Positions 34,766 through 43,455 of a stretch of 64,000 nt of DNA are shown in pieces. This stretch comes from Persephonella sp. KM09-Lau-8 (GTDB taxonomy: Bacteria; Aquificota; Aquificia; Aquificales; Hydrogenothermaceae), in assembly GCF_000703085.1 (NCBI RefSeq), contig NZ_JNLL01000001.1, positions 496,001-560,000 on the forward strand. The letters run 5' to 3'. Under the pieces are notes generated by a model. The model made no database searches and was not told the origin of the DNA. It saw only the letters and a list, made by a program, of their open reading frames with translations. The translations under genes were made by a program, and so were the position numbers. Positions within the stretch are counted from its first letter, which is position 1. Each line of letters opens with the position of its first letter.

Positions 34766-35635
34766 ATGGTAGAGTTTGAGTTTTCACGGATAAGACTTGA
34801 ATATACCACCCTTACAGATTTTAAACAGCCCTATTTTTTAGGTTCTTCATTCAGAGGAGTTTTGGGGAAAAGACTGAAAAAAATAGTTTGTATAAAACCC
34901 CGAGAAGATTGTAAAGTATGCGAGTTTAACAAAACCTGTCCTTACACCGTAATTTTTGAAACAGAGCTTTATCTGAACATGCCATCAAAATATGTTCTTC
35001 AACCTGAATATGATTTAAAACAATTAAAGGAAGGAGATAAGCTAAATATTGATATAACACTTCTTGGATTTGCTTCAAATTATTGGGAATTTATTATACA
35101 GTCTTTGAATACGGTAATAAATTTGGGAAAAGAAAGATTTATCAAACAATCTGCTGTTTATTATTACCATCCATTTGCAAGCAGCTATGAACCTTTAAAA
35201 TCTGTTGTTCCCAGATTTAATGCAAAAGATTTTTTTGATATAAGAACAGGAAAAGAAGAAATAAATATAAGGCTTTTTCCTACCTCTCTAAAATTCGGTG
35301 GTAAATATATAAAAGCCAGTGAGTTTAACAAAGATTATCTAATAAAAGCTATTGTTAGCCGAGTTTCAAATGTGGCTCAAAATTATGGTAGCAAAACTGA
35401 CAAAATATTTATAAACAAATCCAAACTTGAAATTGCAGACAAAAATATGAAGCCTTCCCCTTTAAAAAGATGGTCAAACAGAAAAAAGAAAAAAATGATT
35501 GTTCCAGCCTTTGAAGGAAGTTTTAAGCTAAAAGGTGATATTAATGAGATATATCCATACCTGTTAATACTTGAAAATATAAACCTTGGAAAATCCACCA
35601 GCTTTGGTTTGGGTGTAGTTAGAACAGATTTATAA
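34766..35635 (+). CDS. cas6: CRISPR-associated endoribonuclease Cas6 (PF10040-type), solitary
   Basis: A 289-residue RAMP protein. The N-terminal part (FLGSSFRGVLGKRLKKIVCI) and a four-Cys cluster (C42, C49, C52, C58 in CKVCEFNKTCPY) are typical of the PF10040 branch of Cas6. The C-terminal Gly-rich loop is KSTSFGLGVVRTD (about 275-288). Cas6 cuts the precursor crRNA within each repeat. The gene lies 317 bases upstream of CRISPR array 2 and points towards it. No other cas gene is in the window, so adaptation and interference modules must be elsewhere or lost. AGGAAATTTT precedes the ATG as a weak ribosome site. Confidence 0.85.
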   Translation: MVEFEFSRIRLEYTTLTDFKQPYFLGSSFRGVLGKRLKKIVCIKPREDCKVCEFNKTCPYTVIFETELYLNMPSKYVLQPEYDLKQLKEGDKLNIDITLLGFASNYWEFIIQSLNTVINLGKERFIKQSAVYYYHPFASSYEPLKSVVPRFNAKDFFDIRTGKEEINIRLFPTSLKFGGKYIKASEFNKDYLIKAIVSRVSNVAQNYGSKTDKIFINKSKLEIADKNMKPSPLKRWSNRKKKKMIVPAFEGSFKLKGDINEIYPYLLILENINLGKSTSFGLGVVRTDL

Positions 35636-35952
35636 AGGTTGCATACAGATTTATAATCGTGATAAGTTATAAATAAGGAATATGGCTACCTGACAAAAGA
35701 ATATGATTTATATCATATAAAAATCTCTACAAAATCAGGGTGTAAATTTTAGCGTGATAGACTAAAATTTTAGCTAATTCTTGAAAATAAAGCTTTAGCG
35801 GATTGCATAAATTTTATGCAGATAAAAATTTGTAGAAATTTCACAATTTGGAGTAGAATATTGAAAATAAAGGCTGACAAGCAAATTTTGGAAAAATTTA
35901 TAAACCCATTTAAAAACATTAAATTACCCGCCAAATCGCAAAAATCTAAGCT
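35636..35952 (+). promoter_or_regulatory. Leader of CRISPR array 2 (gene-free, AT-rich)
   Basis: A 317-base AT-rich region between cas6 and the first repeat. No coding frame is convincing. CTGACA at 35874-35879 followed by TATAAA at 35899-35904 is a possible promoter with a long spacer (19 bases). Its position opposite the decayed last repeat makes it the leader. Segments such as GAAAATAAAGCTTTAGCG (35784 region) and TTTCACAATTTGGAG (35839 region) have near matches at 59549-59600. Confidence 0.6.
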
Positions 35953-36279
35953 CTGGAACTGACCCGCTGTTTTAAGGGTATTGCGACTTTCATGAAGGGG
36001 AAAAGTTTCTATAAAACGTTATCTAAACTGGAACTGACCCGCTGTTTTAAGGGTATTGCGACCTACGAGCTCACGTAGGGCTTTGAGGGCTTCGGCCCTC
36101 TGGAACTGACCCGCTGTTTTAAGGGTATTGCGACCGGGGACGGGGACCGGGGAGCAAGTACCCACCGGTGGCCTCTGGAACTGACCCGCTGTTTTAAGGG
36201 TATTGCGACTTATAAAACTCTGGATAATGTTTCTTAATATATTCACTGGAACTGACCCGCTTAATGAGGGTGTTGTGAC
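35953..36279 (+). CRISPR. CRISPR array 2: five repeats of 35 bases, four spacers
   Basis: The 35-base repeat begins CTGGAACTGACCCGCTG and ends AAGGGTATTGCGAC. Exact copies start at 35953, 36028, 36100 and 36175. The fifth, 36246-36279, is decayed (one base shorter, changed middle). Spacers are 40, 37, 40 and 36 bases. The repeat has no resemblance to that of array 1, so a different crRNA pathway is implied. Spacers 2 and 3 are about 62 and 75 percent GC, far above the host. The decayed copy on the right places the leader on the left, after cas6. Confidence 0.97.
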
Positions 36280-36472
36280 TTTTACGATGCAACAAATTAA
36301 AGTGTTTGAACTAAAACTTTCTCATTAGTTCCCAAAATCCTTCACCAAACTTGCAAATTATCCCCAAAAATCCCAATTTATCTTAAGAAATCCTTATGAT
36401 GGTTATCATGGCTTAAAATAATAAGGATTTTATTCTATACTTGAATAAAATTTTGCTAATCAGGAGGATTAA
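36280..36472 (+). promoter_or_regulatory. Upstream region of mrp with inverted repeats
   Basis: This 193-base stretch has no gene. AATCCTTAT (36389-36397) and ATAAGGATT (36421-36429) form a 9-base inverted repeat around a 23-base interval. Inside it ATGATGGTTATCAT (36395-36408) is a second dyad. TAAAAT at 36414-36419 could be a -10 box, so the dyads overlap a promoter position and may be an operator for the Mrp/IscS-like pair. Assignment is speculative. Confidence 0.35.
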
Positions 36473-37537
36473 ATGGCACTTCAGGGAGTAATGGACACTC
36501 TAAAAAATGCAAATCTTGAGGAAATTGGCGTTAGCTTTTCACTTGCAGACCTTTTAAGAGACCTTAGAATAGATGGGAATAACGTTTACATAAAACTATT
36601 TTCCCCAAGTGAAAAATACCATGATTATCTCAAAGAAAAAGCAGAAAAAGTATTAAAATCTATTGGAGCCGAAAAAGTAGAAGTTGAATTTACTTCAGAA
36701 CCACCGAAACAACAACAGCAACCTCCACAACCACCTCCACAAGAAAACCCTTTTGAAAACAGAAGAAGAATTCCTGGAGTTAAAAAAGTCATAGCTGTTG
36801 CCTCAGGTAAAGGTGGAGTAGGAAAATCAACTGTGGCAGTTAACCTTGCAGCAGCCCTCAAAAAAATGGGTTATGAAGTAGGATATCTGGATGCTGATAT
36901 GTATGGTCCTTCAGGACCAACAATGCTTGGAGCTAAGGACAAACAGGTAACAGCAACACCTGATAACAAACTTATTCCTCCAGAAGCCCACGGAATAAAA
37001 ATGATGTCAATTGGTCTTCTTTTACCTTCAGAAGACACTCCTGTAATATGGAGAGGTCCAGTCCTCTTTAAAGCATTATCCCAATTCCTATTTGATATAA
37101 ACTGGGGAGAAGGACTTGATTTCCTAATCATAGACCTTCCTCCAGGAACCGGTGATGTTCAGATTACATTAGGGCAGACAGCAGAAATAGATGGAGCAGT
37201 TATAGTAACAACTCCTCAGGATGTTGCCCTCATAGACGTCAAAAAAGGAATACAGATGTTCAATGAAGTTCAGATACCTGTTCTGGGTATAGTTGAAAAC
37301 ATGAGTTATTTTGTGTGTCCAGATAACGGAAAAGCCTATGAAATATTTGGAAAATCAAAAACAGAAGAGATAGCAAAACAATATAATACGGAGCTACTTG
37401 GAAAAATTCCTATAGAACCAAAGGTGGCTGAATTTGCAGACCTTGGAATACCAATTGTTTTGGCAAAAGAAGATAGCAACTCAGCAAAAGCATTTATGGA
37501 AATAGCCCAAAATGTGATAAGAAAATTAAGTGAGTAA
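36473..37537 (+). CDS. mrp: Mrp/NBP35-family P-loop ATPase (iron-sulfur carrier)
   Basis: A 354-residue protein. An N-terminal DUF59/MIP18-like part (about 1-75) and a Gln/Pro linker (about 78-95) precede the ATPase. The ATPase has the deviant Walker A SGKGGVGKSTVAVNL, DLPPGTGDVQITL and ENMSYF. This family carries or transfers [4Fe-4S] clusters. The bridging motif, usually CxxC (CPHCG), reads CPDNG here, so the second Cys is missing. That departs from the usual carrier site. GGAGG lies before the ATG. The IscS-like gene follows after 19 bases, so an Fe-S role remains likely. Confidence 0.9.
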   Translation: MALQGVMDTLKNANLEEIGVSFSLADLLRDLRIDGNNVYIKLFSPSEKYHDYLKEKAEKVLKSIGAEKVEVEFTSEPPKQQQQPPQPPPQENPFENRRRIPGVKKVIAVASGKGGVGKSTVAVNLAAALKKMGYEVGYLDADMYGPSGPTMLGAKDKQVTATPDNKLIPPEAHGIKMMSIGLLLPSEDTPVIWRGPVLFKALSQFLFDINWGEGLDFLIIDLPPGTGDVQITLGQTAEIDGAVIVTTPQDVALIDVKKGIQMFNEVQIPVLGIVENMSYFVCPDNGKAYEIFGKSKTEEIAKQYNTELLGKIPIEPKVAEFADLGIPIVLAKEDSNSAKAFMEIAQNVIRKLSE

Positions 37538-37556: not shown

Positions 37557-38792
37557 ATGATAGAAAAAAGAGGCATCGTTTATGCTGACCATCTGGCAAC
37601 AACACCTGTGCCTGAAGAGATTGTAGAAGCTATGAAGCCTTACTTTACAGAGCATTTTGGAAACCCCACATCTTTGCATAAATTGGGGGTTCAGGCGAAA
37701 AAAGCTATAAACAGAGCCAGAGAACAAGTTGCAGAGCTTTTAAATGTAGGAAATCCAGAAGAGATTGTTTATACATCAGGAGCAATAGAAGCAAATAACC
37801 TTGCTATAAAAGGATTTGCCAAAGCTCCAGGTATCACAAGAAGAGGAAAACATATTGTTGTTTCTGCCATAGAACACCACTCTATCCTTCACTCTTGCAA
37901 AACTCTGGAAAAAGAAGGATACGAAGTTACATACATAATGCCAGACGAATACGGCATTATCTCACCAGAAAAAGTTGCTGAAGCTGTTAGAGAAGATACA
38001 ATTCTTGTTTCTATCGGTTATGCAAATAGAGAAATAGGAACTCTTCAAGATATGCCAGCACTTGTTGCAGCAGCAAAAGAGAAAAACCCAAGAGTTGTTT
38101 TCCACTCTGATATTGCTGCAGCTGTTGGACATACACCTGTTAATGTAGAAGAATGGGGACTTGATATGGCCTCATTTACAGGGCACTATTTCTATGCACC
38201 AAAAGGTGTAGGTGGACTTTATGTTAAAAAAGGAGTTCGTCTCAAACCTTTGATTGAAGGTGGAATTCAGGAAGGTGGAAGAAGAGCAGGAACTGAGCCT
38301 GTGCCATTGATTGTAGGTATGGGAGCAGCGGCAGAGCTTGCTATCAAAGAAATGGACGACAGAGTAAATAGGCTTAAAGCGTTAAGAGATAAACTCAAAA
38401 AAGGAATTGAGGAAAAAATACCTTACATCCAGTTTACAGGACATCCAGAAAAAAGACTTCCTAACCATCTTTCACTGATTGTTATGTATATTGAAGGTGA
38501 AGCTATGCTTCTTATGCTTGATTATCATAAAATCTATACAGCATCAGGTTCGGCCTGTGTTTCCTATGCTCTTAAACAATCACACGTTCTTGCTGCAATA
38601 GGTGTTGATAAAGAGATGTCTAACGGTTCTATTGTTTTCTCCCTGGGTAGAGAAAATACAGAAGAAGATATTGATTATATCCTTGATAAATATCCTGCTG
38701 CAGTTCAAAGACTTAGAGAAATATCACCATTTGGACCTGAAAACTGGGATGAGTTTGCCAAAAAAGCAGATAAATATAAAAACGTAAGATAA
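37557..38792 (+). CDS. IscS/NifS-like class V aminotransferase homologue lacking the PLP lysine
   Basis: A 411-residue protein aligned over its whole length with cysteine desulfurases: YADHLATTPVPEEI, FGNPTSLHKLG, the PLP-stacking His in SAIEHHSILHSC, HSDIAAAVGHTP (D185) and ASGSACVSYALKQSHV with Cys334 in the loop. Two key positions are changed. The lysine that binds PLP (SGHK in IscS, K206 in E. coli) is Tyr211 in FTGHYFYAPKG, and the Gln that binds the PLP oxygen is Ala188. A. fulgidus IscS is a known homologue that also lacks this lysine. A normal cysteine desulfurase reaction is therefore unlikely. ATG 37557 is chosen over GTG 37530 because AGGAGG is 8 bases upstream. Confidence 0.88.
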   Translation: MIEKRGIVYADHLATTPVPEEIVEAMKPYFTEHFGNPTSLHKLGVQAKKAINRAREQVAELLNVGNPEEIVYTSGAIEANNLAIKGFAKAPGITRRGKHIVVSAIEHHSILHSCKTLEKEGYEVTYIMPDEYGIISPEKVAEAVREDTILVSIGYANREIGTLQDMPALVAAAKEKNPRVVFHSDIAAAVGHTPVNVEEWGLDMASFTGHYFYAPKGVGGLYVKKGVRLKPLIEGGIQEGGRRAGTEPVPLIVGMGAAAELAIKEMDDRVNRLKALRDKLKKGIEEKIPYIQFTGHPEKRLPNHLSLIVMYIEGEAMLLMLDYHKIYTASGSACVSYALKQSHVLAAIGVDKEMSNGSIVFSLGRENTEEDIDYILDKYPAAVQRLREISPFGPENWDEFAKKADKYKNVR

Positions 38793-40940: not shown

Positions 40941-41399
40941 ATGTTTGAATATACAGAAAAGGTGATGGATCACTTCATGAATCCAAGGAACTTAGGGGAA
41001 ATACCAAATCCTGATGGATATGGACAGTGTGGAAACCCATCTTGTGGAGACGCTATGCTTTTTACAATAAAAGTAAACAAAGAAAATGATGTTATAGAGG
41101 ATGTAAAATTCAAAACATTTGGATGTGGTTCTGCTATAGCAGTTTCTTCTGTTCTTACAGAAATGGTAAAAGGAAAGCCTATAGACTATGCACTTAACCT
41201 GACTTATAAAGAAATTTTTGAAGAGCTTGGAGGACTTCCTTCACAAAAAATACACTGTACAAACCTTGGACTTGAAACACTTCATGTTGCAATTAAAGAC
41301 TATCTTCTAAAACAAGGTAGAGTTGAAGAAGCTAACAAAATACCTGATTGCATAGAAGAAGAGGAAGAAGAAGGTATTGACTTAGAACATATAGGATAA
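40941..41399 (+). CDS. iscU: IscU-type iron-sulfur cluster scaffold
   Basis: A 152-residue protein. Cluster ligands are all present: Cys35 and Asp37 in NPSCGDAM, Cys62 in FGCGSAIAVSS, His105 and Cys106 in KIHCTNL. The LPPVK motif that binds the HscA chaperone in E. coli reads LPSQK, so HscA dependence is doubtful. The acidic C-terminal extension (IPDCIEEEEEEGIDLEHIG) and the sequence near the ligands closely resemble the Aquifex aeolicus IscU, as remembered. It heads a seven-gene operon of sulfur-transfer proteins and is 5 bases before the BFD-like gene. GGAGG precedes the ATG. Confidence 0.96.
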   Translation: MFEYTEKVMDHFMNPRNLGEIPNPDGYGQCGNPSCGDAMLFTIKVNKENDVIEDVKFKTFGCGSAIAVSSVLTEMVKGKPIDYALNLTYKEIFEELGGLPSQKIHCTNLGLETLHVAIKDYLLKQGRVEEANKIPDCIEEEEEEGIDLEHIG

Positions 41400-41404
41400 T
41401 AGCC

Positions 41405-41653
41405 ATGGAGAAGGATATTTTCCTAATGGATAAAGATACAACAATATGTTTCTGTAATGATGTTTCTTTAGGGGATATACTGCAGGCTATCCAGAATGGA
41501 GCCTGCACCCTTGAAGAACTTATGGATGCTACAGACGCAGGCACTGCCTGTGGTTTGTGTAAATCCCCTGAAGATGACCCAGATGGAGAAAGGGAAATAC
41601 ATTTAACAGAAATACTGCAACAAGCTAAAGAAAAAGGTATATGTCAAGAATAA
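41405..41653 (+). CDS. BFD-like [2Fe-2S] protein
   Basis: An 82-residue protein. Cys15 and Cys17 in TTICFCNDVSLGDIL and Cys49 and Cys52 in GTACGLCKSPED give the CxC-x31-CxxC spacing of bacterioferritin-associated ferredoxin and of the Fer2_BFD domains in NirB and NifU. It should bind one [2Fe-2S] cluster and pass electrons or act as a scaffold. In nitrogen-fixation NifU a similar domain is fused between the IscU-like and Nfu domains; here IscU, BFD and Nfu parts are separate genes of one operon. It overlaps the ThiI-like gene by 13 bases. Confidence 0.85.
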   Translation: MEKDIFLMDKDTTICFCNDVSLGDILQAIQNGACTLEELMDATDAGTACGLCKSPEDDPDGEREIHLTEILQQAKEKGICQE

Positions 41654-42699
41654 TGAAAGAAAAAAGAAGAGCTATAGCTTTATACTCAGGAGGTCTTGAT
41701 AGCACATTAGCCATAAAGCTCATTCAAAATCAGGGGATAGATGTAATTGCAGTCCATTTCTACACAGGCTTTTGTATCACAGAAACCAAAAGAAGAAGAG
41801 GCGAGAAAAAACCTGACGGCTCTCATTATATGAATCCAACTTTGAAATATGCTGCAAAATATGGCTTTAAGCTGGAGATTGTTGATATTTCAGAAGAATA
41901 TTTTGATATTGTTACCAATCCTAAATATGGCTATGGAGCAAATATTAATCCTTGCATAGATTGCAGAGCTTTTATGTATAAAAAAGCAAAAGAATTAATG
42001 GATGAATTTAATGCCGATTTTATAATCTCAGGGGAAGTCCTCAACCAAAGACCTATGAGCCAGCATCTTAAGGCTATGAAAATCATAGAAAGGGAAGCTG
42101 GAGTTGAGGGGCTTGTCCTGAAACCTTTGTCTGCAAAGGTATTACCTCCTACAATACCTGAGATAAAGGGCTGGGTTGATAGGGAAAAATTAGAAGGCAT
42201 TGTAGGAAGAAGCAGAAAAAGACAGCTGCAACTGGCAAAAGAACTTGGAATAGATGAGTTTGAGCAGCCTGCAGGTGGTTGCTGTTACTTAACTGATGAA
42301 AACTTTGCCAGAAAATATATGGAAACTCTATCTGTAGAAAATAAAATAACCAGAGAAGACCTGTATCTGCTTACCATTGGAAGACATTTCAGACTGCCTA
42401 CAGGAACAAAGGTTGTGGTTTCCCGTAACGAAGGAGAAGGTAATTTCATTAGAGGACTGAAGAAAAATTACTGGTTTTTTGAGCCAATTGGAAAAGGTGC
42501 AGTTGCTATAGCAAAAACAATAGAAAATAGGGAGCTTACTCCAGAAGAAATTAAAGATATAGCCAATCTGGTAGCAAGATACTCTAAAACAGATGAAAAT
42601 GGTAAAATAAATATAAAATATACATCCCCTACAGGGGTAGAGGGCGTTGTAGAGGGTCAAAGACTACAAGAAGAAATAATAGAAAGCTGGAGGATATAA
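41641..42699 (+). CDS. ThiI-like PP-loop sulfurtransferase with C-terminal NFACT-R-like domain
   Basis: A 352-residue protein. The PP-loop SGGLDS is at residues 16-21, which adenylates the RNA or acceptor substrate. Conserved Cys are C105 and C108 in NPCIDCRAFMYKKAKE and C214/C215 in PAGGCCYLTDENF, a pattern that could hold an iron-sulfur cluster. The C-terminal part (about 235-320, TIGRHFRLPTGTKVVVSRNE) looks like the NFACT-R_2 domain found in this ThiI/MnmA-like group. It probably thiolates a tRNA uridine. GAAAAAGG lies before ATG 41641. It is embedded among sulfur carriers that could feed it. Confidence 0.8.
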   Translation: MSRIMKEKRRAIALYSGGLDSTLAIKLIQNQGIDVIAVHFYTGFCITETKRRRGEKKPDGSHYMNPTLKYAAKYGFKLEIVDISEEYFDIVTNPKYGYGANINPCIDCRAFMYKKAKELMDEFNADFIISGEVLNQRPMSQHLKAMKIIEREAGVEGLVLKPLSAKVLPPTIPEIKGWVDREKLEGIVGRSRKRQLQLAKELGIDEFEQPAGGCCYLTDENFARKYMETLSVENKITREDLYLLTIGRHFRLPTGTKVVVSRNEGEGNFIRGLKKNYWFFEPIGKGAVAIAKTIENRELTPEEIKDIANLVARYSKTDENGKINIKYTSPTGVEGVVEGQRLQEEIIESWRI

Positions 42700-42947
42700 T
42701 GGATTTAGAGAATATAAAACCTGATATTACCCATGATGCAACAGGGACTTTTTGCCCAATTCCTATAACGGAACTTGCAAAAGTGATGAAACAGGCTAAA
42801 AAAGGACAGATTGTTGAGCTCCTTGCAGATGATGAAGGAGCTATTCAGGACGTTCCTGCATGGTGTGAAACAACAGGAAATGAGTTTTTAGGATATAAAG
42901 AAGAAGATGGCGTATATGTATTTTATGTAAAGAAAACTCAGGACTGA
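42699..42947 (+). CDS. TusA-like sulfur carrier protein
   Basis: An 82-residue protein of the TusA family (SirA-like fold). The persulfide-carrying Cys is Cys19 in the CPIP motif (ATGTFCPIPITELAKVMKQA). The rest (IVELLADDEGAIQDVPAWCE) matches the conserved second half with an extra Cys55. TusA proteins accept sulfur from cysteine desulfurases or rhodaneses and pass it to tRNA thiolases or, in sulfur oxidisers, to the Hdr-like system. The start overlaps the ThiI-like stop by one base, and the stop overlaps the next start. Confidence 0.88.
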   Translation: MDLENIKPDITHDATGTFCPIPITELAKVMKQAKKGQIVELLADDEGAIQDVPAWCETTGNEFLGYKEEDGVYVFYVKKTQD

Positions 42948-43201
42948 TGAACATGAAAATAACAGAGGATATAAAAGTTTTTCACCTGCTTGAGGAGTTT
43001 CCTGAAAGTGAAGAAATAGTCAGAAAATATTTTAGTTATTTTTACGAAAAGAAATTAGAAGATATAGCACTTAAAAGGCTAAGCATAAAAGGAGCTTTTA
43101 ACGTTTTAAATATACCTGAAGAAGACAGACAAAAATTTTTTCAGGAACTTCAAGAAAAATTAGGTGTTGAAGTTCCTAAAATCAGTATGGAGAAAGAGTG
43201 A
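42947..43201 (+). CDS. DUF1858-like small protein
   Basis: An 84-residue protein without Cys. The order ITEDIKVFHLLEEFPESEEI, VRKYF and LKRLSIKGAFNVLNIPEEDR resembles DUF1858 proteins, which are found next to hybrid-cluster, Fe-S or sulfur-transfer genes. The CxxC region seen in many of them is missing. Function unknown. It is translationally linked on both sides (TGATG overlaps). ATG 42947 is used; ATG 42953 is an alternative. Confidence 0.6.
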   Translation: MNMKITEDIKVFHLLEEFPESEEIVRKYFSYFYEKKLEDIALKRLSIKGAFNVLNIPEEDRQKFFQELQEKLGVEVPKISMEKE

Positions 43202-43455
43202 TGGTTAAAACAAGGGAACAGGAAGTAGAAAACGTTCTTAACATGATTAGACCTGCTTTAGCACTGGATATGGGGGATATTAAACTTGTAAAAGTAGAAG
43301 ATGATACTGTTTATCTTGAGCTTCTTGGAGCCTGCTCCACATGTCCTGTGCCAGACATAACAATGAAAGATGTTATCATAGTGGCTATTAAGAACTTCTT
43401 GCCATGGGTTAAAAAGGTTCATATCGGACAGCATAAATTTGAAATACAAACATGA
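43201..43455 (+). CDS. NifU C-terminal (Nfu) domain protein
   Basis: An 84-residue protein. Residues IRPALALDMGDIKLVKVEDD and VYLELLGACSTCP, with Cys45 and Cys48, are the Nfu signature; it should bind a [4Fe-4S] cluster between two subunits and deliver it to client proteins. The usual GGD is MGD here. GTG 43198 is an alternative start; ATG 43201 overlaps the previous stop as TGATG. It is the last Fe-S gene of the operon and overlaps aroE by four bases. Confidence 0.9.
   Translation: MVKTREQEVENVLNMIRPALALDMGDIKLVKVEDDTVYLELLGACSTCPVPDITMKDVIIVAIKNFLPWVKKVHIGQHKFEIQT

Follow-up and report, generated by a model that had tools for sequence, protein, structure and literature searches.

The window (the whole 64,000-nucleotide stretch of Persephonella sp. 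KM09-Lau-8 analyzed here) encodes an IscS/NifS homologue that lacks the PLP Schiff-base lysine, and this protein is likely, at a probability that we put near 0.7, to be a PLP-free IscS that acts as a partner of IscU and donates a cysteine thiol, with the sulfur coming from sulfide or from a TusA-type persulfide. Fe-S assembly in bacteria is widely held to start with a cysteine desulfurase. Across two families of heat-loving bacteria, comparison of the sequences suggests that the desulfurase chemistry was lost and that the parts which hold the IscU scaffold were retained. The IscS-family member that is retained universally would be the one without enzymatic activity; it is constrained about ten times more strongly than the active paralogue, and an active desulfurase appears to be missing from many of these thermophiles. 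The IscS of A. fulgidus is a known precedent, and the interpretation is here extended from one protein to two bacterial families. The genome annotation of the lysine-less gene as a "cysteine desulfurase" is probably wrong, and the old question whether IscU can physiologically take its sulfur from sulfide or a carrier persulfide becomes testable in a bacterium.

The altered PLP site and its conservation

A strong ribosome-binding site (AAAGGAGG) precedes the start ATG at 37557, and a promoter scan gave a signal no better than shuffled sequence. The encoded protein matches the class-V aminotransferases from end to end (Pfam profile search, 249.9 bits), which places it in that fold and bears out the end-to-end homology to IscS/NifS of the preliminary description. 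The best NCBIfam match was NifS, with 464.8 bits (below the curated cut-off of 530.75), and the IscS score of 385 lay under the equivalog threshold of 643. In an AF2 model (pLDDT 89), the top PDB fold matches were all IscS/NFS1, and the nearest structures were those of A. fulgidus IscS. The features of the gene are given below, with counts that refer to the orthologue rows described further on.

37557..38792, + strand: IscS/NifS homologue of 411 aa without the lysine; a class-V aminotransferase in the NifS/IscS group
37593..37595, + strand: Leu13 in DHLATT (DHxATT motif); Ile in Aquifex, Ala or Ser in active desulfurases
37785..37787, + strand: Ile77 at E. coli T76 (PLP phosphate), 119/119 rows
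38028..38030, + strand: Arg158 at E. coli N155, 119/119 rows
38118..38120, + strand: Ala188 (GCA) at E. coli Q183, the PLP O3' ligand; Ala or Pro among orthologues
38187..38189, + strand: Tyr211 (TAT) in place of the Schiff-base lysine for PLP (E. coli K206)
38556..38558, + strand: Cys334 (TGT), cysteine of the mobile loop (E. coli C328), 119/119 rows; the model shows this loop as disordered
38634..38636, + strand: Val360 at E. coli R354 (substrate carboxylate), 119/119 rows
38700..38762 (approximate), + strand: IscU-binding C-terminal helix region, VQRLREISPFGPENWDEF; in the lysine-less clade, not in the lysine-bearing paralogue

The codons confirmed the residues first described, namely Tyr211 at the lysine (TAT at 38187), Ala188 at the glutamine, and the retained His107 (CAC at 37875), Asp185 (GAT at 38109) and Cys334; His210 and Thr246 are retained as well. 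That account was correct for the two substitutions but missed four more changed positions, Leu13, Ile77, Arg158 and Val360. Relative to active enzymes, the PLP lysine is absent and the T76, N155, Q183 and R354 contacts have become Ile, Arg, Ala or Pro, and Val, respectively; the pairing of a missing lysine with a loop cysteine is that of the A. fulgidus type. In E. coli IscS, desulfurase activity is abolished by K206A and by Q183E (PMC9978102). With the lysine and these contacts gone, the window protein should not desulfurate cysteine, and it would be a former IscS that is no longer a PLP enzyme, with no internal aldimine and with its phosphate, O3' and substrate-carboxylate contacts lost. Replacement of K206 by a nearby lysine was considered and rejected: Lys216 (PKG) gives no support for such a takeover because active enzymes carry it too, and the protein has lost the other PLP contacts.

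A search of 136 Aquificota genomes recovered orthologues (61-100% identity) throughout two families, the Hydrogenothermaceae and a second one that we take to be the Aquificaceae (Aquifex, Hydrogenobacter, Thermocrinis and Hydrogenobaculum). These form 119 orthologue rows, 64 and 55 respectively, some of which duplicate one genome. Tyr211 is no sequencing error, because the K206 position is Tyr in 64/64 Hydrogenothermaceae rows and Leu in 55/55 Aquificaceae rows; the Gln position is held by Ala or Pro. T76I, N155R and R354V occur in 100% of the 119 rows, in both families, as do the retained H104, D180, H205, T243 and C328 (E. coli numbering), and the Cys loop ASGSACVSxALKQ is invariant apart from its variable x. 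Within the genus, the dN/dS of the lysine-less gene against its congeners was 0.011-0.022, and that of the lysine-bearing paralogue was 0.14-0.15, approximately ten times as high. The conserved rows and the low dN/dS rule out sequencing error or decay, and the initial view of a kept variant is strongly supported.

Lysine-bearing desulfurases and SUF in the two families

The window genome has a single further NifS gene, on C1 at about 1692800-1693970, with both the Lys and Cys motifs. Its frame is broken by one base missing in an A-run, and it is intact in the sister genomes G092 and G088; the frameshift is either a real mutation or, possibly, a homopolymer error. A second, lysine-containing desulfurase, which had been named as a point to check, is therefore present but frameshifted in the assembly, so that the absence of any desulfurase cannot be claimed for the window isolate.

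A canonical paralogue, which has the Lys, Gln, Asn, Arg and Cys, occurs in most Hydrogenothermaceae and could supply sulfur in trans, which is a counterpoint to a desulfurase-free reading. Under such a division of labor, the lysine-bearing NifS would make persulfide from cysteine and pass it to Cys334 of the lysine-less IscS, or to IscU directly. We regard this as unlikely, given that the paralogue was missing from 36 of the 59 near-complete genomes of both families (completeness of at least 95%), closed chromosomes included, that it has no IscU-binding helix, that it evolves about ten times faster than the lysine-less gene, and that its frame is broken in the window genome. The genomes without it were 5 of 25 Hydrogenothermaceae and 31 of 34 Aquificaceae; one of these 36 (G034) is also without the lysine-less gene.

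Of 31 genomes searched with a Pfam profile (PF00266), 25 gave no lysine-bearing desulfurase, which confirmed 25 of the 36. The remaining strong class-V proteins were read in 16 genomes and were of the GSQK serine-glyoxylate type, an assignment that covers the strong matches and few of the weaker ones. SufB was found in 0/31 Hydrogenothermaceae and Aquificaceae genomes with the PF01458 profile, and in 5/5 genomes tested from other Aquificota families; no NifS/IscS/SufS-type desulfurase was found in the other families tested (G105-G120, f3-f5). A hidden SUF system or other desulfurase was rejected on the basis of these empty PF01458 and PF00266 searches in the genomes concerned. In many bacteria of the two families, which show neither SufB nor a lysine-bearing desulfurase, IscU and the lysine-less IscS thus make up the one assembly system that looks complete. 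Fe-S assembly from free sulfide or another donor, as suggested in the preliminary description, is thus plausible; the idea has gained strength at the family level, because many genomes are without a lysine-bearing desulfurase and SUF.

Several Aquificaceae carry a second NifS paralogue that is more degenerate (SFDGPSLMAPQG; L137, L138, L139 and L141 in G036, G029, G028 and G051); it is without the lysine and the IscU helix and has a Cys where the loop Cys lies. A Persephonella-type contig under a Flavobacteriales MAG label (L040) is a probable case of mis-binning.

Gene neighborhood and predicted docking to IscU

The genes of Fe-S assembly around the lysine-less gene in the window are as follows.

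36473..37537, + strand: Mrp/ApbC-type Fe-S carrier ATPase, directly upstream of the lysine-less IscS
40941..41399, + strand: IscU scaffold with an extra invariant, lineage-specific Cys (GQCGNPSCGDA)
41405..41653, + strand: BFD-like [2Fe-2S] ferredoxin; of sporadic occurrence and missing from G091 and G092, the nearest sister genomes
41641..42699, + strand: ThiI/MnmA-like PP-loop protein with an NFACT-R_2 domain; IscU operon, conserved across both families
42699..42947, + strand: TusA sulfur carrier; IscU operon, conserved across both families
42947..43201, + strand: small conserved operon protein, no Pfam or NCBIfam family match
43198..43455, + strand: Nfu-type (NifU C-terminal) Fe-S carrier; IscU operon

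Mrp lies immediately upstream in every locus of the two families with enough flank. The order in many Hydrogenothermaceae genomes is Mrp, IscS, IscU, PP-loop protein, TusA, small protein, Nfu and AroE, and in many of this family IscU follows IscS at 74-333 nt, in the same direction and operon. The distance of 2.1 kb to the IscU operon, noted at the outset, is true of the window but reflects a clade-specific insertion of a ClC-type channel and a small HTH gene; the HTH gene alone separates IscS and IscU in G080, which we take to be P. marina. In the Aquificaceae the IscU-to-AroE block is conserved and located elsewhere in the genome. The PP-loop/NFACT-R_2 protein possibly acts in tRNA thiolation, and the small operon protein is presumably DUF1858-like. 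Just upstream of mrp, a short CRISPR array (35951-36282; 5 repeat copies, each roughly 37-39 nt, with a spacing of 71-75 nt) stands beside a Cas6-like gene (34766-35635).

The LRxxSPFxxxNW helix is retained by the lysine-less proteins, and the lysine-bearing Aquificota paralogue ends before that region. In E. coli, the IscS-IscU interface uses the IscS C-terminal helix, and binding is lost when IscS residues 376-404 are removed (PMC2854127). The wild-type Aquifex orthologue (chain A, 100% identical to L083) and Aquifex IscU (chain D) are both present in PDB entry 9wfy. The interface helix, the synteny and this co-entry suggest that the window protein may dock on IscU. The extra IscU Cys, in GQCGNP[S/A]CGD, was present in all covering loci of both families and in 0/32 other IscU loci; it precedes the usual cluster Cys by six residues, at a position that is mostly Val in the other IscUs compared.

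In further entries (9wfe, 9wfb, 9wf8, 9wew, 9wer and 9wep), the lost PLP-site residues are restored stepwise in the Aquifex protein. These 9we/9wf entries did not rank among the best fold matches from a structure set ending 8 April 2026, and a literature search for them returned chance matches only and no paper, so that other groups are evidently at work on the lysine-less IscS now. The entries bear on a non-covalent use of PLP, for slow desulfuration or another reaction, which we consider very improbable. His107 and Asp185 remain, the stacking His, the pyridine Asp and T243 are invariant, and E. coli IscS K206A still retains some PLP non-covalently (PMC9978102), but the Thr, Asn, Gln, Lys and Arg contacts were lost together and the residue-by-residue restoration from 9wfe to 9wep suggests a wild type without a PLP site. 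It is just as improbable that the protein is only a structural or regulatory partner of IscU/Mrp (docking of IscU and control of its dimerization or cluster release) with Cys334 chemically unused. The conserved docking surface and the constant adjacency of Mrp would fit this reading, but the Cys and its loop ASGSACVSxALKQ do not vary over the 119 rows and the Cys is kept by every other lysine-less type seen.

Sulfur source and other lysine-less types

The reading that we prefer is that of a PLP-free IscS which has kept its dimeric fold, the helix that binds IscU and the mobile loop of Cys334, and which would be an obligate partner of IscU. Cys334 would reach the IscU site, either as a ligand that completes the nascent [2Fe-2S] cluster or to hand over a persulfide, by analogy with A. 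fulgidus, and the neighboring Mrp would probably carry clusters onward. Work cited in PMC7585200 describes the A. fulgidus IscS as lysine-less, in complex with IscU, and with its Cys ligating the cluster. Such a putative Cys-ligand role, which the preliminary description cited for A. fulgidus IscS, appears well supported for the window protein by the Cys loop, the IscU helix, the synteny and 9wfy.

The sulfur would come from sulfide, abundant around sulfur-metabolizing thermophiles, or from a persulfide carrier, e.g., TusA. H2S feeds E. coli IscU without IscS under anaerobic conditions (PMC13015791). The presence of TusA in the IscU operon is suggestive of TusA as persulfide source, and a TusA relay is unsupported at the E. 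coli docking site because W45, E49 and D52 are not conserved in the lysine-less proteins. As many of the bacteria have no working replacement desulfurase, their Fe-S clusters are probably made from sulfide or a sulfur carrier. We give even odds to the full form of this proposal, in which many members of both families would build Fe-S clusters without any cysteine desulfurase or SUF, the PLP-free IscS relaying sulfide or persulfide through its loop Cys to a single IscU with the extra lineage Cys, and Mrp being a fixed partner.

Among known systems, A. fulgidus IscS2 (PDB 4eb5, 4eb7 and 4hvk; D199K, 4r5f) was the top fold match of the window model and shares the loss of the lysine (to Asp), Gln (to Ala) and Arg (to Leu) together with the loop Cys; it differs in being archaeal, in retaining T76 and N155 and in having lost His205, and is about 43% identical. 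The Aquifex aeolicus "cysteine desulfurase" (9wfy and variants) is an orthologue with the same lost positions, but with Leu instead of Tyr at the lysine and Pro instead of Ala at the Gln. E. coli IscS and human NFS1 share with the window protein the fold, the dimer, the C-terminal helix for IscU and the Cys loop, but are active PLP enzymes with Lys206, Gln183, Asn155, Thr76 and Arg354. Methanosarcina acetivorans IscS1 and the MIS system (MisS-MisU) represent IscS-IscU pairs without the rest of ISC, as here, and IscS1 is reported to have no lysine (PMC7585200, PMC12442378). M. acetivorans has an active IscS2 and SmsBC, whereas the Aquificota families have no SUF/SMS and many of their genomes no active desulfurase.

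In a tree from all columns, one lysine-loss change suffices. Once 26 active-site columns are taken out, both A. fulgidus and the Verrucomicrobiota type are placed within lysine-bearing sequences and the tree requires three changes, so that lysine loss appears to be repeated; a common origin of all lysine-less IscS was rejected on this tree with moderate support, which suggests that A. fulgidus and the Aquificota lost the lysine independently. A clade of the Aquificota proteins with A. fulgidus alone was also rejected (p 0.0001), a grouping that was poorly chosen. In the Verrucomicrobiota there is an Arg-type lysine-less NifS adjoining IscU and Mrp, as well as a distinct Gln type; the Cys is retained in all of them, and 3/3 Arg-type genomes examined also have lysine-bearing enzymes. 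The Gln type (L279, L291, L296 and L301) carries Gln at the lysine, in NPNQFNGPK, and retains Arg354.
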